Below, piece by piece: positions 4,348-16,759 of a stretch of 64,000 bases of DNA; the first letter of the stretch is position 1, and each line of letters opens with the position of its first letter. The notes under the pieces are model-generated. The model was given only the letters and a program-made list of their open reading frames with translations, searched no databases and had not been told where the DNA came from. This DNA comes from Pseudothermotoga thermarum DSM 5069 (GTDB taxonomy: Bacteria; Thermotogota; Thermotogae; Thermotogales; DSM-5069): the NCBI RefSeq assembly GCF_000217815.1, contig NC_015707.1, positions 496,001 through 560,000 of the forward strand, in the 5' to 3' direction. The position numbers and the translations under genes were made by a program.

Positions 4348-4378
4348 GTGCAAAATTCACCATTTGGCAAAATTAACT

Positions 4379-5164
4379 GAGTGTGTTCGAAAAAAGGGCT
4401 TGAATATTCCGAAGATGAGATATAATCCTTAAAAACACTTCACCGAAGGAAGGAAGACTCTGTATGAGGAGAAAATATTCACTGAAAAGATTATCCGTGA
4501 AGATGATTAAGAGTTTACTGCAACTTATTAAGATGCCTGCGATTTCAACGCTTCATTATTGATAGGTGAAAAGCTTGAGCAGATAGTAGTAGATGGAACA
4601 GGCTTTGGATACGATGACAAGCAAAGGCTGAGTTGGATGAGGGGAAGGAAGAAAAAGGGGAAGCAATACTTGTAGGGGTAAGGATGGGACCAGCATACAG
4701 TGACGAGAGGAAACTTTTGTTGGGATTGATGGAGAGGACGTGGGTAAAGGCTGGATGTGTGATAGGGGATGCACTTTACAGGATGAGTGTGGAGCTACTG
4801 GGGAGATTACTTGAGCGGGCGGAACTTGTGCTGGTTCCGGTGAGGGATACATTGCACACGAAGGTTAGGAATCCTTTGAGGGGTAAGGTGAAAGAGATGT
4901 ACGAAACCAACAGGGAGAAGTACAAGGAGAGGTATGTAGTTGAGCAAGTGATAGGGAAGATAAAGAATGCGTATGGCAGATGTGAAGGTACAAAGAGCAT
5001 GCAGATGGCGAAGAAGAGGATATGGGTGAAGATGATACTGTACAACTGGGTAAAGGTAATATTTTTGTTGTTGTTTATTAGGAGGGTATATTTTTGTCGA
5101 GAGAAGCTTGAAGCACTTTGAATGCCAGGACAATAAGTGTATTCCTGATTTTTCGAACAGACTC
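4379..5164 (+). mobile_element. Insertion sequence copy 1 (IS4/IS5-superfamily type, 786 bp)
   Basis: Bounded by imperfect 16-bp inverted repeats (GAGTGTGTTCGAAAAA at 4379-4394 and its partner at 5149-5164 with one mismatch, ending ACAGACTC). The 785-bp element at 7005-7789 is the same sequence in the same orientation; in the parts compared, the only difference noticed is one A in the A-run of the left repeat (six here, five there). I see no target-site duplication: left flank ends TTAACT, right flank starts ACAAAA. It lies 32 bp upstream of the leuA -35 box and 8 bp upstream of the -35 of the chemotaxis gene promoter, so both neighbouring promoters are intact. Encodes a broken transposase. 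Confidence 0.9.
4464..5121 (+). pseudogene. Transposase, interrupted by two frame changes (IS copy 1)
   Basis: The N-terminal piece MRRKYSLKRLSVKMIKSLL... starts at 4464 and stops at TGA 4560-4562. The next piece, one frame back, holds the first catalytic Asp (VVDGTGFGYDD, near 4590) and stops at a TAG near 4670. The third piece, another frame back and reading to 5121, carries the second Asp (VIGDALYR) and the YKERYVVEQVIGKIK segment, which fits the Y(2)R(3)E(6)K signature of IS4/IS5-superfamily transposases exactly. All DDE residues survive, but two -1 shifts would be needed to make one protein. The second shift lies near an A-rich GAAGAAAAAGGGG run where programmed frameshifting is conceivable; the first has no obvious slippery site. 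Total coding about 215 residues, short for the family. Confidence 0.8.
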
Positions 5165-5264: not shown

Positions 5265-6968
5265 ATGGGTTTTAAAAGCCTTTCAAGACTTATTTTCATG
5301 ATTGCGTTAATCCTCGTGCTAGCCATGACTTCAGCCTTCATGATAGTTACTTACTTTAACACAAAAAATAGCATTTTGGAAAACAGACTCTGGGGAGTCA
5401 AGAGTTTAGTTGAACAAGCTTACGGATACATTGAGTTTCTGTATTCGAAACTGCAAAACGGAGAGATAGAGAGAAAGGAACTTTTTGCGCAACTTCAGAA
5501 ATCTTTGGACAAGATGCGATATGACGGTGGAAATTATATTTTCTTGTACGAGAACTATGTACAGATTTACACCCCAAATTCTGCGAATATAGGAAAAGAT
5601 TTGAGGGATTTACAGGATCCAAACGGTAAATATGTCATAAGGGATCTGGTTGACGGTTCAAAGGCTAAGGGTGAAATTTTCTACACCTACATGTGGCCTA
5701 ATCCAGCAAAGAATGGAAAGGTTGAGCCGAAATACTCGTATGCAAAATGGTTTGCGCCCCTAAATCTAATGGTTGGTACAGGGGTTTATCTGCCCGATGT
5801 AAACCAAGCTGTCCTCAAAGCGATGATACCAGTTATAATATCATTTTTAATTGTTCTTTTAGTCATGATGGCTCTCACATTTCTAATTTCTCGAGGCATA
5901 GGAAAAGTAGCAAGCAAAGTTATGCTTGCAACCGAGAAGATAGCTGAAGGCGATTTAAGTGTTAGAGTTAATGTAAAGAGGAAAGATGAATTTGGGAGGA
6001 TATCTTCAGCTTTGAACTCTATGGTTGAAAAACTGAGGAATACGTTGTCTGAAATTTCCGCAGTGAATATGACTGTCAGCAAGAACTCATCTGAGCTTTC
6101 GGCTTTTTCTGAGAAAGTGAAGGCTGCAATTGGAACCGTAAATAAACAGTTTGAACTAACCGCAGGTGATATTCAAAACATATCAGCTTCTTTGGAGCAA
6201 GTCAATTCAAGTGTGGAAGAAATTGCCGCCTCGGCTCAGAATGTTTCGAAGGCAACTCAAGAACTTTCGGCAGCGGCAGGGAATATGAAAAACTCTGCTG
6301 AGACGAGTGTAAGTATGATTGAAGAAGTCTCAAAGAGCTTCGAAAGAACATATCAAGAGGTTCAGAAAGCTTTTGAAACAGTCAAGAAGCTTGCTGAGAA
6401 CGCCCAAAACATTGGGGAGATAGTTGAAGCCATAAATAGCATAGCAGAGCAGACAAATCTTTTAGCTCTCAATGCGGCTATAGAAGCTGCAAGAGCAGGA
6501 GAGGCTGGAAGAGGATTTGCAGTTGTCGCCGATGAAATAAGAAAACTCGCTGAAGAAAGCAAGCAGGCAACCGGAAGAATAGCGAATATCTTGAAGCAAA
6601 TTCAAGACCAAACAAGAGAAGTTAGCACAAGTACGGAGAAAACTGTTGTTTCGATAAAAGAAAGTGGGGAAGCTGCGACAAGAATAAGTGAATATTTGAA
6701 AAACATAACAGGCCTTATTCAAAAAGTGGCCCAGATGATAGAGACAACTACGGCGGCAGCAGAAGAGCAAAGTGCAGCTACGGAGGAGATAGCCTCAGCT
6801 GTCGATTCTTCATCCAAAACACTTGTAAACCAAGTTGAAAAAATTGAAAGGATAAAGGATGAGCTTAATGGCATTGAGAAATCCGCAGAAACTTTGGCGA
6901 AATCAAGCCTTGAACTTCAGAGATGTGTTGAAAGTATGAACAAACTGATTTCTAAGTTCAAAATTTGA
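5265..6968 (+). CDS. Methyl-accepting chemotaxis protein with single Cache domain
   Basis: Transmembrane chemoreceptor that signals to CheA/CheW. 567 residues: membrane segment at about 8-30, an extracytoplasmic single-Cache (sCache_2-like) domain of about 150 residues with the typical [11 protein letters not shown] and [24 protein letters not shown] strands, a second membrane segment near 188-210, a HAMP linker ([14 protein letters not shown] ... [15 protein letters not shown]), and a long coiled-coil signalling domain with the hairpin tip [21 protein letters not shown] followed by [21 protein letters not shown] 5265 has AAAGGAGGT 8 nt upstream. It is a single gene flanked by two identical IS copies, with its own consensus promoter; no terminator is seen before the downstream IS, 36 bp after the stop. 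Confidence 0.97.
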
Positions 6969-7004
6969 AGAAGTCGCATTATTTTAATTCGCTTTCCCTG
7001 ATTG

Positions 7005-7789
7005 AGTGTGTTCGAAAAAAGGGCTTGAATATTCCGAAGATGAGATATAATCCTTAAAAACACTTCACCGAAGGAAGGAAGACTCTGTATGAGGAGAAAA
7101 TATTCACTGAAAAGATTATCCGTGAAGATGATTAAGAGTTTACTGCAACTTATTAAGATGCCTGCGATTTCAACGCTTCATTATTGATAGGTGAAAAGCT
7201 TGAGCAGATAGTAGTAGATGGAACAGGCTTTGGATACGATGACAAGCAAAGGCTGAGTTGGATGAGGGGAAGGAAGAAAAAGGGGAAGCAATACTTGTAG
7301 GGGTAAGGATGGGACCAGCATACAGTGACGAGAGGAAACTTTTGTTGGGATTGATGGAGAGGACGTGGGTAAAGGCTGGATGTGTGATAGGGGATGCACT
7401 TTACAGGATGAGTGTGGAGCTACTGGGGAGATTACTTGAGCGGGCGGAACTTGTGCTGGTTCCGGTGAGGGATACATTGCACACGAAGGTTAGGAATCCT
7501 TTGAGGGGTAAGGTGAAAGAGATGTACGAAACCAACAGGGAGAAGTACAAGGAGAGGTATGTAGTTGAGCAAGTGATAGGGAAGATAAAGAATGCGTATG
7601 GCAGATGTGAAGGTACAAAGAGCATGCAGATGGCGAAGAAGAGGATATGGGTGAAGATGATACTGTACAACTGGGTAAAGGTAATATTTTTGTTGTTGTT
7701 TATTAGGAGGGTATATTTTTGTCGAGAGAAGCTTGAAGCACTTTGAATGCCAGGACAATAAGTGTATTCCTGATTTTTCGAACAGACTC
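7005..7789 (+). mobile_element. Insertion sequence copy 2 (785 bp)
   Basis: Same element and orientation as the copy at 4379-5164, offset by 2625 bp; the coding parts read identically and the only difference noticed is one A less in the left-end A-run. Inverted ends GAGTGTGTTCGAAAAA... and ...TTTTCGAACAGACTC. Flanks (CCTGATT on the left, CCAGTGG on the right) show no target duplication. It starts 36 bp after the chemotaxis receptor stop and ends 10 bp before the -35 box of the trpB2 leader. Near-complete identity of the two copies argues for a recent event or for gene conversion. Confidence 0.9.
7089..7746 (+). pseudogene. Transposase, same two frame breaks as copy 1 (IS copy 2)
   Basis: Reads the same as the copy at 4464-5121: N-terminal piece from ATG 7089, first catalytic Asp in the second frame, second Asp and the Y(2)R(3)E(6)K motif in the third frame ending at 7746. 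Because both copies carry the same two breaks, the breaks predate the duplication or transposition that made the second copy. Either the element is moved in trans by an intact relative elsewhere, or the breaks are bypassed by frameshifting. Confidence 0.8.
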
Positions 7790-9376: not shown

Positions 9377-9447
9377 AAATTCCATAGTGATTTTCCAGGG
9401 AATTTTCATTTGCATAGATATCCTAAAGCCAGGAGGTTATGGGGATG
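9377..9447 (+). repeat. Upstream copy of a duplicated leader segment (about 71 bp)
   Basis: Pairs with 9552-9623. Both begin AAATTC, contain GAATTTTCATT and end in CCAGGAGGTT(A/G)TGGGGATG, that is, a strong ribosome site and a start codon. The ATG codons here (9439, 9445) open only a 70-codon frame without recognisable features that runs into the second copy. The interval 9318-9620 otherwise holds no gene; further GAATTTTCA/GATTTTCA-like motifs recur near 9355, 9400, 9530 and 9575. Confidence 0.6.
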
Positions 9448-9551
9448 GGTATAGTTCACACCGGCTATATGAGTTCACCGAGACAAACTTTTTTTGTGCA
9501 TTCTCCCGTAACCACCACGGAATTTCAGCAGATTTTCAGCGGATTATCAGC

Positions 9552-9623
9552 AAATTCTCTGATGCTTTTTCAACGAATTTTCATTGTCATTCGTATTGTA
9601 TTAACCAGGAGGTTGTGGGGATG
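9552..9623 (+). repeat. Downstream copy of the duplicated leader segment
   Basis: Imperfect direct repeat of 9377-9447 (one indel, scattered mismatches, best conserved over the GAATTTTCATT block and the ribosome site). Its terminal ATG (9621) is the start of the real secreted-protein gene. Confidence 0.6.
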
Positions 9624-10685
9624 TTGTCAGATAGAAAAACATGTAAAAGGTTGTTAATAAAGCTTCTCGTTACTTTCGTCCTCATAACCGTTTTCAATGT
9701 ATCAAATGCTCAAACTGTTTACAGATACGATTCAACAACGGGTCTTTGGAAAATGGTGGATGGGGAAGATGCGTCGCTTAATCTGGTGACGCAACCATTA
9801 CAAGGTTCGTCTTCGGCTGCATCAACGGTAATTCCACTTCAGGGAACCGTTGCCATCGAACCGTCTTCAGTCTTGGAAACCAAATCGATTTCTTTGACGA
9901 CAAAGGCACGTTGGTACTACTACATGACCTACACCGTGACTGACAGTTCACAGGAACGTAGTTACCAAATTCTTGCGGGTCAGAACATCAACATTGGTAC
10001 AGTTATGGTCTGGAATGACACAGCAAGGATCTACATTAAGTTTGAGCTTACCAACGGCTGGCTTGCAAATCAATCACATCTGAATTTTCTTCAAAACGAG
10101 CCAGATGACTCGTACAATCCAGTCCCGGGACAGTTTCCGTTCAAGACAAACCATTCACCAAACGTCACCACGTACACTTATCAAATTCCGCTTGCAGAGG
10201 TTCAAAGCAAATGCAGTTTTTCACCTCAGCAAGGAGAGCCAATCTACATTCTTCTTCATCTGAGCGTTAAGAAGGGTAACCAAAACGAAACTGCATGGGC
10301 TGGATCGGAAATCACAGGCTGTTTCTCTGTAAGCATCTCTGCAACGAATCTTGCTTGGTTTTTGAGAAAACCAGGAGATTACGCAACAAAAGCGTTCGAC
10401 GTAAATGTTATCAGCAACTATCCAGTTGTGATTACCTTCAAAGATTTTGATAACCCTATCAACGCAGCAGGAGTTTCTTTGCGGACGTACTTTGCATTCG
10501 ACGGTCTTGGGAACTGGATTACACCGTCAGATTTAAACAGCATTACGAAAACTCTTGAACCAGGAACTTCAACGTTCAGCATGTACCACAGGGTGATTCT
10601 TCAAGGTCAACCGGCATGCATTTATTTCAGCGTTGGAACAATATCTTTCGCAGTTGTTATGGTGAAATCACAAATTATCAAGTAA
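9621..10685 (+). CDS. Exported protein of unknown function (354 aa)
   Basis: Not recognised as a named family. ATG 9621 behind CCAGGAGG; residues 1-30 are a signal peptide (basic start, hydrophobic LLIKLLVTFVLITVF, cleavage after VSNA). The mature start QTVYRYDSTTGLWKMV resembles the mature start of the next gene (LEVWKWDGENNEWDFLG). Residues about 90-230 look like a surface beta-domain seen in many exported proteins (AGQNINIGTVMVWND ... GWLANQSHLNFL ... GQFPFK ... NETAWAG). The C-terminal part has AWFLRKPGDYATKAF, again shared in style with the next gene (KWYVRKPGMYVADC). First gene of a five-gene exported-protein operon; likely an envelope or surface component (inference). Confidence 0.8.
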   Translation: MLSDRKTCKRLLIKLLVTFVLITVFNVSNAQTVYRYDSTTGLWKMVDGEDASLNLVTQPLQGSSSAASTVIPLQGTVAIEPSSVLETKSISLTTKARWYYYMTYTVTDSSQERSYQILAGQNINIGTVMVWNDTARIYIKFELTNGWLANQSHLNFLQNEPDDSYNPVPGQFPFKTNHSPNVTTYTYQIPLAEVQSKCSFSPQQGEPIYILLHLSVKKGNQNETAWAGSEITGCFSVSISATNLAWFLRKPGDYATKAFDVNVISNYPVVITFKDFDNPINAAGVSLRTYFAFDGLGNWITPSDLNSITKTLEPGTSTFSMYHRVILQGQPACIYFSVGTISFAVVMVKSQIIK

Positions 10686-10735
10686 TTTGAACCACAATCT
10701 CGCCCCTAGATGGGGTGAAAAAGGAGGGTCTTTTT

Positions 10736-11419
10736 ATGAGGAAATTGCTTATCGTCATCGCGGTAACATTAGCAGTTGCAGCACTTGCTGTAGCTCAAGG
10801 ATTGCCGAACCAACTAGAAGTTTGGAAGTGGGATGGAGAAAACAACGAGTGGGACTTCTTGGGATTTGGAACTGACGCAGATGCTTGGGCATTTAGCACA
10901 GGTATGCAAAGTGGTGAGTGCAACAAACAAACTTGGAATATCAACGTCGGTGTGGATGTCAGCGTTGCCCAGTGGATTGAGTGGTCACTAACCGCTTCTA
11001 AGTGGAAATGGTATGTGAGAAAACCTGGCATGTATGTTGCCGACTGCATCACAGCAAACCTTAAGAGCAACGGACCTGTTAAGGTAAAAGTAGTGATGGG
11101 AAATATCACAGGTGGAAATCCTAACACAAACAGTACAATTGAATCTTGGTACGGAGCAGATTTTGCTGCTCAAAGCCCAGGCAATGTAGCATATTGGTTG
11201 CCTGCGCCAATTGACTATGAATTCACAGTGCCAGATAGCAATACTTTACATGCGGGATATGCAATAAAACTGTGGAACAAAATCAATGTTGTAGAATGTA
11301 ACTCCGCGTGCGAGTATAGTGCAACTGGAACAATTACTCTTACGCTGCAGACAATTAAGCCATGGATCGATCCAGAGACTGGAAACTTCAAGTCTGATTA
11401 TTCCTACCTTGGTCAATAA
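10736..11419 (+). CDS. Exported protein, shorter paralogue of the preceding one (227 aa)
   Basis: Function unknown. Signal peptide MRKLLIVIAVTLAVAALAVA, cleavage before QG; ATG 10736 has AAGGAGGG. The mature protein is Trp- and Asn-rich with no membrane segment, and contains VWKWDGENNEWDFLG and WSLTASKWKWYVRKPGMY, both echoed in the 354-residue protein upstream, so the two share N- and C-terminal modules while the upstream one carries an extra central domain. Cysteines at three positions (ECNKQTW, DCITAN, ECNSACEY) could form disulfides. A strong hairpin follows the stop. Probably an abundant surface subunit (inference). Confidence 0.8.
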   Translation: MRKLLIVIAVTLAVAALAVAQGLPNQLEVWKWDGENNEWDFLGFGTDADAWAFSTGMQSGECNKQTWNINVGVDVSVAQWIEWSLTASKWKWYVRKPGMYVADCITANLKSNGPVKVKVVMGNITGGNPNTNSTIESWYGADFAAQSPGNVAYWLPAPIDYEFTVPDSNTLHAGYAIKLWNKINVVECNSACEYSATGTITLTLQTIKPWIDPETGNFKSDYSYLGQ

Positions 11420-11472
11420 GACTAAGAAACTTTTTGACACCTTAGCGCTTTGGTGAACTAAAAGTATGAATA

Positions 11473-11501
11473 ACAGCGGGGGGCTATATCCCCCGCTGTT
11501 G
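11473..11501 (+). other. Intercistronic hairpin (11-bp stem)
   Basis: AACAGCGGGGG (11473-11483), loop GCTATAT, CCCCCGCTGTT (11491-11501). It lacks a following T-run (GTTAGAG), so it is more likely an RNA-stabilising or partial-terminator structure that sets different levels for the small exported protein and the downstream genes than a full terminator. Confidence 0.6.
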
Positions 11502-11522
11502 TTAGAGAAAGGAGCGAGTCAG

Positions 11523-13157
11523 ATGAAAAAGTTGTTTTTAATCATTTTTATTTTGGCAGCTTTGGTTTATTTGGGTCAGGGAACTTTCAATGTGAGGTTT
11601 GATCCAATTATTGTAAGAAAAACTGCTTTTGCTGGGGATAAAATCAGTTACGATCTGTTCATCGAAAATGCTGATCCGTTGAACCCAATAGATGTTGAAG
11701 TTTCAGTACAAGATGTGATACAAAGCACTTATGGATCATACCAAATAGCTCCAGCAGGTTCAACAAGTTATTCAGCCGCAAAGTGGATAAAAGTTGAACC
11801 AAATAAGTTGAGGATACCACCATCTTCTACAAGAAAAATCACAGTCGAAGTTTCTATACCCCGAGGTGTGCAAGGTGGAAGATATGCTTCCATAGTTCTA
11901 ACACTTTTACCACCTTATCAAGAAGGCACGACTTCACAGGAAGATGCTACCAGGTTTGCGTATCAGTTCAAATATCAGATACCAAGTTTTTTAGAACTGA
12001 CGATCGAGGGAATTAGAAAGAAACTAGAAGCACACGTTATCAACTTTGAGGTGGCAAAAATCGCGGATATTCCAGAATTTCATGCATATAAAGAAGTTGT
12101 TGGTACAAATGCAACCCTTTACATGGTAAGTGTCTTAAACAATGGCAACATCTATGTCAACGTGTCGGGCGAGATAAACATAAAATCTCAAACCGGCAGA
12201 GTCGTTGCAAAATATCCTATTGCAACGGGTACAGTTTTACCTGGTACGACCGTCAAACTTCCGACTATAACTGGTAGGCAACTTCAACCTGGCAATTACA
12301 ACGTGAGAATTATCTTAAGCTATGGAGGTCACAGACCAACTATTCTTGAAACAACTATGACCGTCTCAGGTGAAGAACTACAAGTAAAGGAAATATCTCC
12401 AGCCGAGGTTGTTTTGCTCTACGTAGAACCAGGGAACGTTGAAATAAAATCAATAGGTGGTTCAACAAGAAGCGCAACAGTCGAGGTTGTAAACAACAGC
12501 AAAGTGTCTTTGGATGTAACTGCGGATATTTACACACTTAAATACGACATTTTGGGCGATTTGCTACCACTGGAAGAAAGATCAAAGGCCCCAGATTGGA
12601 TCAGCGTTTCACCAGGTTCTTTTCAATTGAAACCTGGCCAGTCAAGAAGAATACGAGTAATGGTAAGTCCGCCGAAGGACATTCGAGAAGGTGGATATTA
12701 CTACGATGTTATTTTTACAGCAAAAACCGAGGCCGTAAAATCAGAGTATGGTTTGAACCTGCTTGTTTACGTTGGCTCAGAGGATAAGATAAATCAAGAA
12801 CTTGTTGGCGATCTTGCGGTTACAGAGATTACCGAAAGCAGCTTGGACGTGGACGTGTACTTGAAGAACACAGGCAATTACCATGCAATTCCATCTGTAA
12901 CTCTCGGAATCCTGAGAATCATTCCAGAACGTGAAGAAAACGGCATGATCATACCATCAACAACACAGACAATCGCCACCGCAACTTATTCAGGTGAAGT
13001 TCCGATTCTTCCAGGTGAAGAGAGAATTTTCGGTGTTCAGATTCCATTTCCTGCTTCACCAGGTGAATACGAGGTTGTTGCAAGGATTACCTATGGAACT
13101 GAGAAATCTCTTGAGGTCCGAAAGAGATTCAAACTGGCTGGAGGTGAAGAACAATGA
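11523..13157 (+). CDS. Exported Ig-like repeat protein (DUF916/NEW3-like, 544 aa)
   Basis: Signal peptide MKKLFLIIFILAALVYLGQG; ATG 11523 after AAAGGAGCGAG. Two similar halves, roughly residues 20-270 and 290-544, each built of Ig-like beta-domains with the pattern WIKVEPNKLRIPPSSTRKITVEVSIP / WISVSPGSFQL KPGQSRRIRVMVSPP and GGRYASIVLTLL / GGYYYDVIFTAK. This pattern matches the WxL-associated DUF916 or NEW3 type of extracellular Ig domain, in which a strand precedes a short Pro-rich turn; related folds include pilus chaperones. No membrane anchor at the C-terminus. It overlaps the secretin start by 4 bp, so the two are translationally coupled and probably act together at the outer envelope. 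Confidence 0.75.
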   Translation: MKKLFLIIFILAALVYLGQGTFNVRFDPIIVRKTAFAGDKISYDLFIENADPLNPIDVEVSVQDVIQSTYGSYQIAPAGSTSYSAAKWIKVEPNKLRIPPSSTRKITVEVSIPRGVQGGRYASIVLTLLPPYQEGTTSQEDATRFAYQFKYQIPSFLELTIEGIRKKLEAHVINFEVAKIADIPEFHAYKEVVGTNATLYMVSVLNNGNIYVNVSGEINIKSQTGRVVAKYPIATGTVLPGTTVKLPTITGRQLQPGNYNVRIILSYGGHRPTILETTMTVSGEELQVKEISPAEVVLLYVEPGNVEIKSIGGSTRSATVEVVNNSKVSLDVTADIYTLKYDILGDLLPLEERSKAPDWISVSPGSFQLKPGQSRRIRVMVSPPKDIREGGYYYDVIFTAKTEAVKSEYGLNLLVYVGSEDKINQELVGDLAVTEITESSLDVDVYLKNTGNYHAIPSVTLGILRIIPEREENGMIIPSTTQTIATATYSGEVPILPGEERIFGVQIPFPASPGEYEVVARITYGTEKSLEVRKRFKLAGGEEQ

Positions 13158-14311
13158 AAAGGTTGACGATAGTTCTTGTTTGTATGCTTGGAATTTTGAT
13201 GTTCGCACAAGAAGAACCGCTTGTCACGAACATATTCTTCGACACCTACATACTCGATGCGCTGGCTGACATCTCGGCACAAACCGGGGTTCCAATAATC
13301 GTTGATCAAACTGTCAGCGGCTTTATAACAGCGGAGTTTGACAATGTGCCTTTGGAGAAGGCTCTGAAGATGCTTTTGATGCCAGGGGGATATGTTTTTA
13401 TAAAAGTCGACGGTTTTTACTTCGTCGGTTCACCAGATCCAAAGAACCCAGCTTTCAGATACCTTGCGGACACTGTTTCGTTCAAGCCAAAGTACGTGAA
13501 GGTGGATTCTGTTAAAAATTTGCTACCTGCCTTCTATGAACCATTTGTAAAATTTGACGCAGTGAACAACTTGATTACAATCTCAGCACCAAGGGAGATC
13601 GTCGAGAGATTCAAGGAAGATCTTGAGAGAATTGATTTGCCGCCGAAACAGATAAAAATTAGCGTCCTTGTGACCGAAGTGTCCGAATCAGTTGTCAAAG
13701 ACCTTGGATTTGATCAGATTGGCTATCAATTTGGCGCAAATCAGCAGTTCAACGAAGACTGGACAGCATCCCTTGGCCTTGTTTCGGGAACCCTTTCTTT
13801 CAGAACTGACATGTTTGGAACCATTGTTGCAACGATAAAGGCTTTTGAAGAAGAGCAAAAAGCAAAGATCAAGGCAGATCCATGGATAATCGTTCAGGAA
13901 AACAGACCCGCAAAGCTTTTCATAGGTCAAAGGGAGATAATACTCATTGAAACTGCAGCTGCTGCAGTAACAACACAGACGGTTGATGTTGGAGTTGGGA
14001 TAGACATCAGCGCACGGGTTGTCAACGAAGACGAGATAGAGCTAACCGTTGCACCGAGTGTAAGCCACTTTGCACAGGCAAGAACGACAACCGCTTTGTC
14101 CACAAAGAGAAGCGAACTTTCAACAACCTTGAGGATGCAAAGTGGACAAACCTTGGTGATAAGTGGCATGACAGTTGAAAGTAGCAGTGATAGTTATGTT
14201 GGATTGCCTTTGTTCAAGAGTATACCTTTGCTGAGATACCTTTTTGGTGTCAAATCGGAGGCTGAGGGCAAGAGGGAAATGTTGATCTTTGTAAGCGCTG
14301 AAGTTCTGTGA
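13154..14311 (+). CDS. Short secretin (GspD/PilQ superfamily, 385 aa)
   Basis: Outer-membrane ring-forming channel protein. Signal peptide MKRLTIVLVCMLGILMFA; residues about 25-85 are an STN/N0-type domain (YILDALADISAQTGVPIIVD ... VPLEKALKMLL), about 95-165 an N1-type domain ending in a linker with IDLPPKQI, and about 170-385 the secretin core (GVGIDISARVVNEDEIELTVAPSVS, the STTLRMQSGQTLVISGM strand and the closing LPLFKSIPLLRYLFG). All expected core motifs are present, but there is only one N1-like domain, making it much shorter than type II or type IV pilus secretins (600-750 residues). No secretion ATPase, platform or pilin gene is adjacent. Confidence 0.9.
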   Translation: MKRLTIVLVCMLGILMFAQEEPLVTNIFFDTYILDALADISAQTGVPIIVDQTVSGFITAEFDNVPLEKALKMLLMPGGYVFIKVDGFYFVGSPDPKNPAFRYLADTVSFKPKYVKVDSVKNLLPAFYEPFVKFDAVNNLITISAPREIVERFKEDLERIDLPPKQIKISVLVTEVSESVVKDLGFDQIGYQFGANQQFNEDWTASLGLVSGTLSFRTDMFGTIVATIKAFEEEQKAKIKADPWIIVQENRPAKLFIGQREIILIETAAAAVTTQTVDVGVGIDISARVVNEDEIELTVAPSVSHFAQARTTTALSTKRSELSTTLRMQSGQTLVISGMTVESSSDSYVGLPLFKSIPLLRYLFGVKSEAEGKREMLIFVSAEVL

Positions 14312-14325
14312 TTGGGGTGTTTAAA

Positions 14326-15480
14326 ATGAGATATCTTGTAATATTTTTCGTACTTTCTGCAATCTTAGTGGGCGCACAAAGTGTTGTAATCTACCAATTC
14401 GAAGTTGTTCAACTGTCTCAACAGGTTGTTGCAAAAGCTGGCTTGGACGAATTGAAGATTGAAGTGCCAAGTTCTCCTAACGCATCGATGGGAATCTTCT
14501 ACAGTGCTTCTGCCATGCAGTTATTGGCGCAGTTTCCACTCGTCACAGTAAAATTTGGTCTCGGTGAAAAAGAAGAAAAGACAAAACTCTCATCAAGACC
14601 ATGGGTTTCAACTGTGCTTGGACAAAAGGCGACTGTTTTTGTTGGAAGAGAAGAAATCGTCTTGCAGACAGGTGTTAGAAAAGGTCAGGGAATCAGATTG
14701 GAAATCACACCGATTTCGATAGCAAAGGAAGGTGTATTGACCAAATTGACTTTGGCAGACCCATACGGACCGACAACATATGACAACGAACAGTACGTGG
14801 ATTTGAAGGACTTTAAACCTATTGCGTTGATTTCCTCTAAAAGTGAGAACGGATTTGATTACTTTGCAATCTACGCAAAGGCTACGGTTGCTGAAAAACT
14901 TCCAGAAACAAACGTTTACAGCGTAGGAAGTTTAGATGAACTTGCGAAAGTTTTCATGAAAGATGAGTTTGTGAAGAAGGAAAACTCGGTATATGCAGTA
15001 GTCGTTACCGATTTTTCTTCGTACGATGGTGAAGCAAACATTTTGATATGGGTCAACGATGCGGTTATCCAAGCCAAAGTAACCTTCAACCCATTAACCT
15101 TCGTCGGTGGTGTGGAAGGTTTGGTTGATAAGCTTGGACTAAGAGTTGGTGCGAAGTTTTACTATGACAATGGAATGGTGATAGGCTTTGGAGTATCCGA
15201 CCATGCAAGGTTAAGTGAGATTTTGACCGCTTTTGCGGAACTTTATCCTTTCAGGATAGATATCTCAGAGCTGAAGTTCGTTTCGCCATCTTGGAGGGCG
15301 GGATTGTCGATAGACTATGAGAAATTTTCCATGAGCCTTGGAACATTCGACGAGGGAAAACTGGGACTTTGGGCAGATGGTGCGTTCAAAGTCTCAGAGA
15401 ATTTTTCAGTTCTTGCAGGTGTCAGATATATCTTTGAAGGTAAAATTGTCTTCTTTGCGGGTCTAAGGATTAGCTTCTGA
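14326..15480 (+). CDS. Exported protein with secretin-core-like segment and beta-barrel-like C-terminus (384 aa)
   Basis: Start at ATG 14326 behind GGGGTG; signal peptide MRYLVIFFVLSAILVGAQ. Residues about 90-150 (KLSSRPWVSTVLGQKATVFVGREEIVL) align in pattern with the core of the preceding secretin (KADPWIIVQENRPAKLFIGQREIIL), suggesting descent from a secretin. The last 150 residues alternate hydrophobic and polar residues with aromatic strand ends and finish in FFAGLRISF, a typical C-terminal outer-membrane beta-strand ending in Phe. It may be a companion barrel or plug for the secretin (inference). Last gene of the operon; terminator 28 bp after the stop. Confidence 0.75.
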   Translation: MRYLVIFFVLSAILVGAQSVVIYQFEVVQLSQQVVAKAGLDELKIEVPSSPNASMGIFYSASAMQLLAQFPLVTVKFGLGEKEEKTKLSSRPWVSTVLGQKATVFVGREEIVLQTGVRKGQGIRLEITPISIAKEGVLTKLTLADPYGPTTYDNEQYVDLKDFKPIALISSKSENGFDYFAIYAKATVAEKLPETNVYSVGSLDELAKVFMKDEFVKKENSVYAVVVTDFSSYDGEANILIWVNDAVIQAKVTFNPLTFVGGVEGLVDKLGLRVGAKFYYDNGMVIGFGVSDHARLSEILTAFAELYPFRIDISELKFVSPSWRAGLSIDYEKFSMSLGTFDEGKLGLWADGAFKVSENFSVLAGVRYIFEGKIVFFAGLRISF

Positions 15481-15507
15481 CCCGATAACCAAGCTGCTTA
15501 TTTTTCT

Positions 15508-15540
15508 GCGCAGCTCATCAACTGGGCTGCGCCCTTTTTT
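15508..15540 (+). terminator. Terminator of the exported-protein/secretin operon
   Basis: Stem GCGCAGC (15508-15514) with GCTGCGC (15526-15532), extendable by two pairs (one T-G), loop ATCAACT, then CC and six T (15535-15540). It overlaps the last codons of the convergent M48 protease gene. Confidence 0.8.
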
Positions 15541-16759
15541 GATAAAGCTCAAGATGCATTATTCTATCCACCGGCGCCGGATGCGTGTAGTACCACGTCG
15601 CATAAACCAGCGAAGGCAGAGGATTGGAAAGATTTTGTTTTATCAGTCTTTTCAAAGAGTTTATCAAAGGTTTTGAACTTCCCATAAGCTTTGCAGAGTA
15701 TTCGTCAGATTGATATTCGAATTTTCTGGACATCCAGTTGAAAACTGGCATGACAAAGAATCCAACAAGGTTAAGGACTATCACAAAAGCAGCAAGTGAA
15801 CTGAAAGTGCTTTTTAGGGAAAACAATTTTTGGATAAATCCAGTTTCAAGAACAACGTGGCAAAGATACGACAAAATCCACATCCCAGCAAGGGATATCG
15901 CAAGCATTTTGAATATATGTTTGTGTTTATGATGCCCAAGCTCATGCGCAAGGACTGCAAGGATTTCTTCTTCTGGGTAATTCATTATCGTGTCGTAGAG
16001 AACGACTCTTCTTGAGCTTCCAACACCCGTCAAATAAGCATTCGCTGCCTTGGTTCTTGTTGATGCATCCATGATGTAGACACTTTTGACCTTAAAACCG
16101 GCTTTTTCTGCAAGGTTTGCTATTTTCTCCCTTATCTCGCCTTGAACGGGAGTGAACTTGTTGAAAAGTGGTGAAATCAAAATCGGATAAATCCATTCGA
16201 TGAAAACCATAACTGCAGACAGAACAACTGCAAGTAAAATCCACCAGTTTGATGTCAAATTGGATATCTTGAAAACGGCTACATAAAGAACACTTGCAAA
16301 TAGAGTCAGTACACTTCGAAGGAAGAGACTTTTGAAAAAATCACCCCAGAATTTACCCCATTTGACGTTGCTCAAATCGTATTTCTTGTCCAAATACATG
16401 GTTTTGTAAATCCTGATTGGTAGCTGCACCAAGATGAAGACAAGCTGTACAACCATCCAACAAAGGAAGGCTTTGAAGAGCACGTTGAGATTTGAATAAC
16501 TGAAAGCTTCGTCTATCAAAGGCAAAAGCCACATCAAAATGACAACCTGACAGATTGCGATAACTGTTAGATTTAGAATCGATAGAATAGTTCTGTCCTT
16601 CAAGTAGAACTTCGATTTTTTAAAGGTTTCTTCGTCGATGACATCTTTCAGCACATCGGGAAGAACGGCTTTAAAGGAATATCTCAAATTCGTTATATGT
16701 AGCAAAACTGAGACGAACCATACGAGAATTATCAAAAAAATTACGCTGACCCCCAACAT
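15518..16759 (-). CDS. M48-family membrane metalloprotease (Ste24/CAAX protease-like)
   Basis: Zinc protease of the inner membrane. 413 residues with about seven hydrophobic segments (residues 3-20, 58-80, 92-112, 150-168, 175-195, 285-305, 320-340), the zinc motif HELGHHKHKH at about residue 270 and the third-ligand region FEYQSDEYSAKLM; the C-terminal YYTHPAPVDR is typical of Ste24-type M48 enzymes, in which 400-450 residues is the usual length. ATG 16759 follows GGAGGGA. Role in bacteria is probably membrane-protein quality control (family inference). Followed downstream only by the convergent secretin operon. Confidence 0.93.
   Translation of the reverse strand: MLGVSVIFLIILVWFVSVLLHITNLRYSFKAVLPDVLKDVIDEETFKKSKFYLKDRTILSILNLTVIAICQVVILMWLLPLIDEAFSYSNLNVLFKAFLCWMVVQLVFILVQLPIRIYKTMYLDKKYDLSNVKWGKFWGDFFKSLFLRSVLTLFASVLYVAVFKISNLTSNWWILLAVVLSAVMVFIEWIYPILISPLFNKFTPVQGEIREKIANLAEKAGFKVKSVYIMDASTRTKAANAYLTGVGSSRRVVLYDTIMNYPEEEILAVLAHELGHHKHKHIFKMLAISLAGMWILSYLCHVVLETGFIQKLFSLKSTFSSLAAFVIVLNLVGFFVMPVFNWMSRKFEYQSDEYSAKLMGSSKPLINSLKRLIKQNLSNPLPSLVYATWYYTHPAPVDRIMHLELYQKRAQPS

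Follow-up and report, generated by a model that had tools for sequence, protein, structure and literature searches.

A stretch of 64,000 nucleotides from the genome of Pseudothermotoga thermarum DSM 5069 (hereafter the window; C1:496001-560000, in a genome of 2.04 Mb on a single contig) contains five consecutive genes, g1 to g5, that lie on the plus strand, include a gene for a minimal secretin, and are examined here as a candidate export or assembly cassette. The first gene, g1 (9621-10685), encodes a 'large' exported subunit of 354 amino acids, and g2 (10736-11419) a 'small' one of 227 amino acids that has the C-terminal domain of g1. They are followed by g3 (11523-13157; 544 amino acids), which appears to encode an immunoglobulin (Ig)-like protein of tandem double WxLIP type and is the proposed periplasmic chaperone or scaffold; by g4 (13154-14311; 385 amino acids), the secretin and proposed outer-membrane gate, with an STN domain, one N1-like domain and the core; and by g5 (14326-15480; 384 amino acids), in which a degenerate secretin core appears fused to a predicted 12-stranded outer-membrane beta-barrel. 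An earlier start of the g3 frame is possible at 11466, the ribosome-binding site and signal peptide belonging to 11523, and g5 may start at either GTG 14308 or ATG 14326. The preliminary description of this DNA had spoken of five consecutive exported genes ending in one terminator, with the Ig-like gene overlapping the secretin gene by 4 bp. By a crude hydropathy score, a hydrophobic, signal-peptide-like stretch does begin each of the five products, and the g3/g4 overlap is as described and is identical in 14 of 19 loci examined. The terminator needs amendment: a hairpin of intrinsic-terminator type (15508-15532, plus strand) closes the operon after g5, and a further strong hairpin (-26.1 kcal/mol; 11469-11503, plus strand) lies inside it, separating g2, the last of the subunit genes, from the genes for the machinery.

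The product of g4 belongs to the secretin superfamily, matching the Pfam Secretin family at E 6e-32 (PF00263, 110.9 bits against a cut-off of 27.5). With matches to Secretin_N (9e-6) and STN (0.002) that stay under the Pfam cut-offs, it has the minimal architecture of STN, one Secretin_N domain and core in 385 residues that had been assigned to it. The window's own g4, the one sequence to which this comparison applies, falls far below all four curated NCBIfam secretin subfamily cut-offs tested (PilQ, the best, at 104.2 bits against 284.35; SctC, 98.8 against 238.45; GspD, 86.6 against 351.35; MshL, 77.4 against 250.2). As the preliminary description had noted for the immediate neighbourhood, neither an assembly ATPase (PF00437) nor a platform gene (PF00482) stands beside g4 in its own genome. 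The genome has one further secretin, which is of the long kind and lies at C1:858764, some 6 kb away from the sole T2SSF platform gene (C1:865285). Its two T2SSE ATPase genes over the cut-off (C1:1224493 and C1:1688708) are both more than 700 kb from g4. Because the long secretin lies so near the only T2SSF gene, with the T2SSE genes elsewhere, the type IV pilus (T4P) or competence machinery of this organism probably has its own, separate secretin.

Other genomes take the matter further. The G170 genome (one contig, 3.02 Mb) contains exactly one secretin, that of the cassette, while T2SSF is absent from it and T2SSE does not reach the cut-off, and G171, a single contig of 3.82 Mb with the cassette and four secretins, likewise has neither T2SSF nor T2SSE over the cut-off. 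In G164 and G174, which are not single contigs, no ATPase or platform gene of the type II secretion system (T2SS) or T4P was found over the cut-off anywhere, and among 22 cassette-bearing genomes T2SSF is absent from 7 and present in 15. Searches by phmmer with the organism's own PilB, PilT and PilC, over the window and loci L033-L098, gave no homologue adjoining g4. Outside PilB's own locus they returned four weak matches only (7.6e-6 to 1.5e-6, in L049/L078, which are one contig, and in L056/L059), one of which, when checked with Pfam, was a tRNA synthetase. A displaced part of a T2SS or T4P, which the preliminary description had itself named as a finding that would overturn its proposal, is rejected on the evidence of G170, whose only secretin is the cassette's, of G171, and of the gene positions in P. 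thermarum: the cassette is a dedicated secretin locus, independent of T2SS and T4P. The same evidence leaves us giving hardly any credence to g4 as an accessory or displaced secretin of type IV pilus or competence machinery, a role for which one might cite its secretin core homology and a table excerpted from PMC5637354, where both TM0088 and TM1117, the latter presumably the g4 orthologue, are named pilQ.

The preliminary description had called g5 a secretin-derived barrel, and this holds for half of the protein. Residues 18-174 align to the secretin core of the g4 family (hhalign probability 95.5, E 1.5e-8), and the N-terminal half is most simply taken as secretin-derived. In an AlphaFold2 model of g5 (mean predicted local distance difference test, pLDDT, 74.1; 83-95 per ten-residue block over 221-384), the last 165 residues are confidently predicted to form a closed, 12-stranded barrel. 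That barrel appears to be a separate domain of outer-membrane type, nearest to NanC and KdgM (VIA Z 19.8 over 163/157 residues; root-mean-square deviation, rmsd, 2.0 over 163 to NanC) and resembling also the amyloid exporter FapF (VIA Z 16.4). An origin of the whole of g5 from a secretin was rejected on these grounds. A sequence search of the PDB with g5 returned a single match, to a designed barrel, at E 1.6. At fourteen Thermotogota loci (L045, L053, L055, L057, L058, L060-L065, L069, L071 and L072) the place of g5 is taken by a longer protein, here called protein X, whose N-terminus is like that of the secretin and which matches STN in both members tested (L055 and L058).

A profile built from 30 members of the g3 family picks out EfmWxLIP1, a WxLIP of solved structure, in the PDB at E 2.4e-10. 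The Pfam family PF06030 (WxLIP_PGBD) is matched by 18 of the 30 members at E <= 0.01, PF11797 by one of them, and the window's own g3 reaches E 0.009 only, below the Pfam cut-off. As hhalign shows one half of the protein to be homologous to the other (probability 99.8, E 5e-28), sequence comparison identifies g3 as a tandem double WxLIP (DUF916/DUF3324-like) protein. No hydrophobic segment was found beyond the signal peptide (hydropathy count 0), and the protein accordingly appears to be without the C-terminal transmembrane helix by which a WxLIP is anchored. Passages of PMC10599100 predict that WxLIP completes the sandwich of a WxL protein by donating a strand of its own. A role of g3 as a chaperone or scaffold, which the preliminary description had suggested from its Ig-like character, is favoured through this homology to a predicted strand donor.

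The products of g1 and g2 had been described as paralogues and as the likely cargo. Their C-terminal domains are indeed homologous (hhalign probability 99.7, E 3e-27 after trimming of the signal peptides), and outside this domain there is no homology between them, such that the paralogy extends to one domain of g1 and not to the rest. Across 32 g1/g2 sequences this domain carries a WxxxKPGxY signature in which P and G are invariant and W, K and Y nearly so; a QW motif is common to the g2 rows of the alignment and missing from the g1 rows. No further copy of the family was found in the organism's own genome. An AlphaFold2 model of g1, built with the 32 sequences (mean pLDDT 82.3, predicted template modelling score, pTM, 0.58), would comprise the signal peptide, an N-terminal hairpin, a low-confidence linker (57-96), a beta-sandwich (about 98-228) and a C-terminal pilin-like domain (about 232-346). 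In the model g1 thus adds an N-terminal domain to the C-terminal one, as is the case in tip adhesins, and Foldseek places first a tip adhesin of two domains, CfaE (E 1.3e-3), with FimG at rank 8 (probability 0.99). In VIA-align, chaperone-usher pilins and adhesins fill 37 of the 50 rows for the C-terminal domain, many of these rows being the same few proteins. The best match is CsuE at Z 7.1 (100 residues, rmsd 2.8), and since a Z below 8 may reflect a common arrangement only, a C-terminal domain nearest to chaperone-usher pilins is favoured and not proven. Several of the rows reach back to model residues 64-75 where the matched pilin is self-complemented or polymerised (FimA, CfaB, CS17), a hint that the predicted strand 75-79 occupies the donor-strand place; we take it as a hint because the tool gives range ends only and the stretch is of low confidence. 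Fibres of TasA/camelysin type were considered and set aside, no such Pfam family having appeared for g1/g2.

The N-terminal domain of g1 introduces a different thought. In VIA it resembles TRAF/MATH domains, at Z 6.3-6.8, as well as, at Z 6.1, a putative carbohydrate-binding protein, and the lists for the g1 model contain arrestin and other sandwiches as well. Such resemblances might suit a channel put to some other export use, of polysaccharide or an enzyme for example, with g1 and g2 as periplasmic or surface binding proteins. By eye, however, no enzyme or glycosyltransferase is constant across the loci, the constant partners being small exported proteins and g3, and we consider this use of the channel very unlikely.

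A stronger alternative arises from g3 itself. For monoderm Bacilli a surface complex of a large WxL protein, a small WxL protein and WxLIP has been proposed, and the same three genes make up a typical WxL cluster as presented in PMC10599100 and PMC9772566. Since g1 and g2 stand in an equal large and small relation next to a WxLIP homologue, the cassette might make a diderm counterpart, in which g1 and g2, exported through g4, would form a compact adhesive complex held by g3 rather than a fibre. Set against this are the absence of the WxL domain from the 16 Pfam families matched by the 32 g1/g2 members at E <= 5, the doubling of g3 and its lack of a C-terminal membrane helix, and predicted folds that come nearest to chaperone-usher pilins. 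On balance we hold such a complex to be somewhat unlikely, and a simple WxL cluster was rejected, no WxL domain being found in the g1/g2 family.

The boundary between the candidate subunit genes and the machinery genes is marked by the internal hairpin. Among the window and loci L033-L050, with gaps of 20-300 nt between called genes considered, a hairpin was found in all 15 g2-g3 gaps tested, with energies of -20.6 to -26.3 kcal/mol. Each is stronger than those of all 20 shuffles of its own gap (dinucleotide-keeping, with a plain shuffle as fallback where none was found), and the best value among 24 other gaps in the same operons is -14.8 kcal/mol. In several loci a T run follows the hairpin. 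Pilin operons are known for making subunits in excess over machinery, and a hairpin that damped read-through or protected the upstream mRNA would likewise yield many subunits and few machines. Together with the predicted fold and the gene order, the hairpin favours the earlier suggestion that the first two genes are the cargo.

Well beyond this organism, g3 and g4 are inherited together. In a set of 103 Thermotogota genomes the secretin has matches in 93; at least 59 of the 103 hold a g4 match in a short frame among the matches listed (fragments in two cases), and the other matching genomes have long frames alone among the matches listed. The usual order in Thermotogota is small exported proteins, g3, g4, and then g5 or the longer protein X. 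In the window and in all 40 Thermotogota loci sampled g3 accompanies g4, and because these loci were hand-picked for a short secretin, only g3 counts there as a test. When named genomes were scanned with g4, 26 loci came up, 8 in Thermotogota, 17 in Bacillota/Firmicutes/Clostridia/Halothermothrix and one in WOR-3. Whole-genome searches with g3 at E <= 0.001 found matches in 58 of 72 genomes in the class of one cassette-bearing Bacillota genome, some of them short and weak and perhaps other WxLIP-like proteins, and in 25 of 147 in the phylum of the WOR-3 genome, most of them weak and six below 1e-40. At loci reached through such g3 matches, 19 of them hand-picked, g4 is present in 18 (or in 17 of 18, if a contig that g4 itself had already brought up is set aside). 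In total g3 and g4 occur together in 75 of 86 loci, or, since seven contigs were fetched twice (L073/L034, L074/L036, L077/L048, L078/L049, L079/L050, L097/L068 and L129/L084), in 68 of 79 distinct ones across Thermotogota, outer-membrane-bearing Bacillota and WOR-3; some other loci are close relatives, and the g4 match of L120 is a short fragment. Ten of the eleven misses lack g3, their contigs breaking off on the side where it usually stands, and one (L127) lacks g4. The conservation of the neighbourhood, which the preliminary description had put forward as one of its checks, is thereby borne out. Members of the g1/g2 family precede g3 in Thermotogota, Bacillota and WOR-3 loci, and relatives are present in many of the 19 loci found through g3. 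A tree was made from 75 g4 sequences, after removal of X-type sequences, duplicates and fragments of <280 residues, and its root is weak because the outgroup is one sequence. Omp85 was detected in all 12 non-Thermotogota genomes tested, the control being positive in 7 of 14 reference genomes, all seven of which we take to be diderm.

This distribution bears on whether the cassette could be the export route of the toga, as the preliminary description had suggested, or of an S-layer-like coat, with g1 and g2 as lattice subunits of the outer sheath. Its wide occurrence in Thermotogota would fit, as would the multiplication of subunit genes in some families, and the Limnochordia strain L945, a possibly unrelated case, has an S-layer by microscopy although no S-layer protein was found in its genome (PMC11456536). 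At the same time, the short secretin is not in every Thermotogota genome among the matches listed, though a toga is ascribed to all of them; Bacillota and WOR-3 have the cassette too; and the known toga proteins are OmpA and OmpB (PMC3387000). A toga or coat route is in our view improbable.

Several further features lie near the cassette. Upstream of it in the window, identical 787-bp copies with a DDE transposase fragment (4378-5164 and 7003-7789) flank a methyl-accepting chemotaxis gene (5265-6968), an arrangement that resembles a composite mobile element. The leader of g1 with its ribosome-binding site is present as a diverged duplication (9387-9447 and 9562-9622), the first copy leading to a short open frame only. 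Short repeats of the type TTTTCAGC occur at about 9520-9560 of the window and also in L033-L040, in each case upstream of g1 at a distance of some 60-100 bp. In most of the eight listed f1 loci the spacing between repeats is about 10-12 or 21-22 bp, and they are possibly a regulator-binding array. A BTAD-type regulator often adjoins the cassette (L048:2479-3591; cluster c3 in many Thermotogota loci, with Pfam run on one member), and the Bacillota locus L092 has a protein that looks similar by eye. In WOR-3 two very large exported repeat proteins (L095:1389-5525 and 10153-15570) flank the cassette, their C-termini having, by eye, the look of type IX secretion system (T9SS)-like sorting domains.

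Overall, we believe that g1-g5 may constitute a dedicated, ATPase-free 'chaperone-secretin' export or assembly cassette, a reading to which we would assign an even chance. The pathway might run as follows. Both g1 and g2 would reach the periplasm by Sec, where their Ig-like, pilin-type domains, probably incomplete folds, would be held by g3 lending a beta-strand. The minimal secretin ring of g4 would then provide the exit through the outer membrane, with g5, through its barrel and its secretin-like periplasmic part, partnering or positioning g4 there. Outside the cell g2 could polymerise into the bulk of a fibre or coat on the surface, with g1 at its adhesive end, and the drive would come from folding or strand exchange outside rather than from ATP. 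A number of observations weigh against this reading. Sequence searches of Pfam, NCBIfam and the PDB returned no match for either g1 or g2. The resemblance to pilins rests on a predicted model, for which Foldseek gives no match at E <= 0.001 and only 9 chaperone-usher subunits among its top 50 rows. Profile links to g2 from two other Thermotogota families (c5 and c6) and from the subunit-like genes of one Bacillota group mostly vanish after trimming of the signal peptides (for c5 the probability drops from 95.9 to 31), leaving homology of these genes to g2 unsupported. In addition, g5 in its present form is missing from some loci, where another exported protein stands instead.

If the chaperone-secretin reading is correct, the cassette would matter in several respects. 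A survey of secretion systems (PMC4793230) describes Thermotogae as the sole diderm clade with none of the typical systems, and its authors speculated on envelope-adapted ones; the cassette is a concrete and testable candidate for such a system. From a genome that has a secretin and lacks every T2SS/T4P ATPase and platform gene it would follow that secretins can serve motor-free export, and the occurrence of a WxLIP protein in both suggests that surface assembly in diderms is connected with the WxL adhesion clusters that gut and pathogenic Bacilli carry. More broadly, a double WxLIP chaperone and a minimal secretin, with neither usher nor motor, might represent a third route to donor-strand fibres, spread in diderm Thermotogota, deep-branching diderm Bacillota and WOR-3, and surviving in monoderm Bacilli, once the outer membrane had been lost, as their WxL clusters; we offer this as a tentative proposal, possible and still short of probable. 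Searches of the open-licence literature in PubMed Central brought up no description of such a system, an absence that proves little, and a search there for TM1112-TM1118 returned nothing on that locus.

Compared with known systems, the cassette has something of each. With chaperone-usher pili (FimH/FimG/FimC/FimD; archaic CsuE/CsuC) it would share the lack of an ATPase, a partner of Ig type, and a pilin-like C-terminal domain that is present both in a large subunit of two domains and in a small subunit of one. It differs in its proposed gate, a secretin ring in place of a 24-stranded usher, in a partner that is a double WxLIP and not PapD/FimC, and in subunits for which no sequence homology was found. 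A chaperone-usher system proper was rejected, the usher family PF00577 being found over the cut-off in none of the 103 Thermotogota genomes, with one match below it and a positive control in E. coli. The WxL clusters of monoderm Bacilli, in which WxLIP is accompanied by a small protein and by a large one bearing additional N-terminal domains (PMC10599100), share the WxLIP (DUF916 + DUF3324) homologue, g3, and the adjoining one- and multi-domain subunit genes, whereas the cassette adds an outer-membrane secretin and a barrel, has g3 duplicated and without the membrane helix, and shows no recognisable WxL domain. The secretins of T2SS and T4P (GspD, PilQ) have in common with g4 the core with STN and one Secretin_N domain, yet g4 comprises only 385 amino acids and has no ATPase or platform gene adjoining or, in some genomes, anywhere. 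FapF and the KdgM/NanC porins have a 12-stranded outer-membrane barrel like that predicted for the C-terminal half of g5, which differs from FapF in standing beside a secretin and in bearing a degenerate secretin core where FapF has a coiled coil. The parts of the cassette thus come from known superfamilies, and it is their combination, which fits no definition of T2SS, T4P, chaperone-usher system or WxL cluster, that sets it apart.

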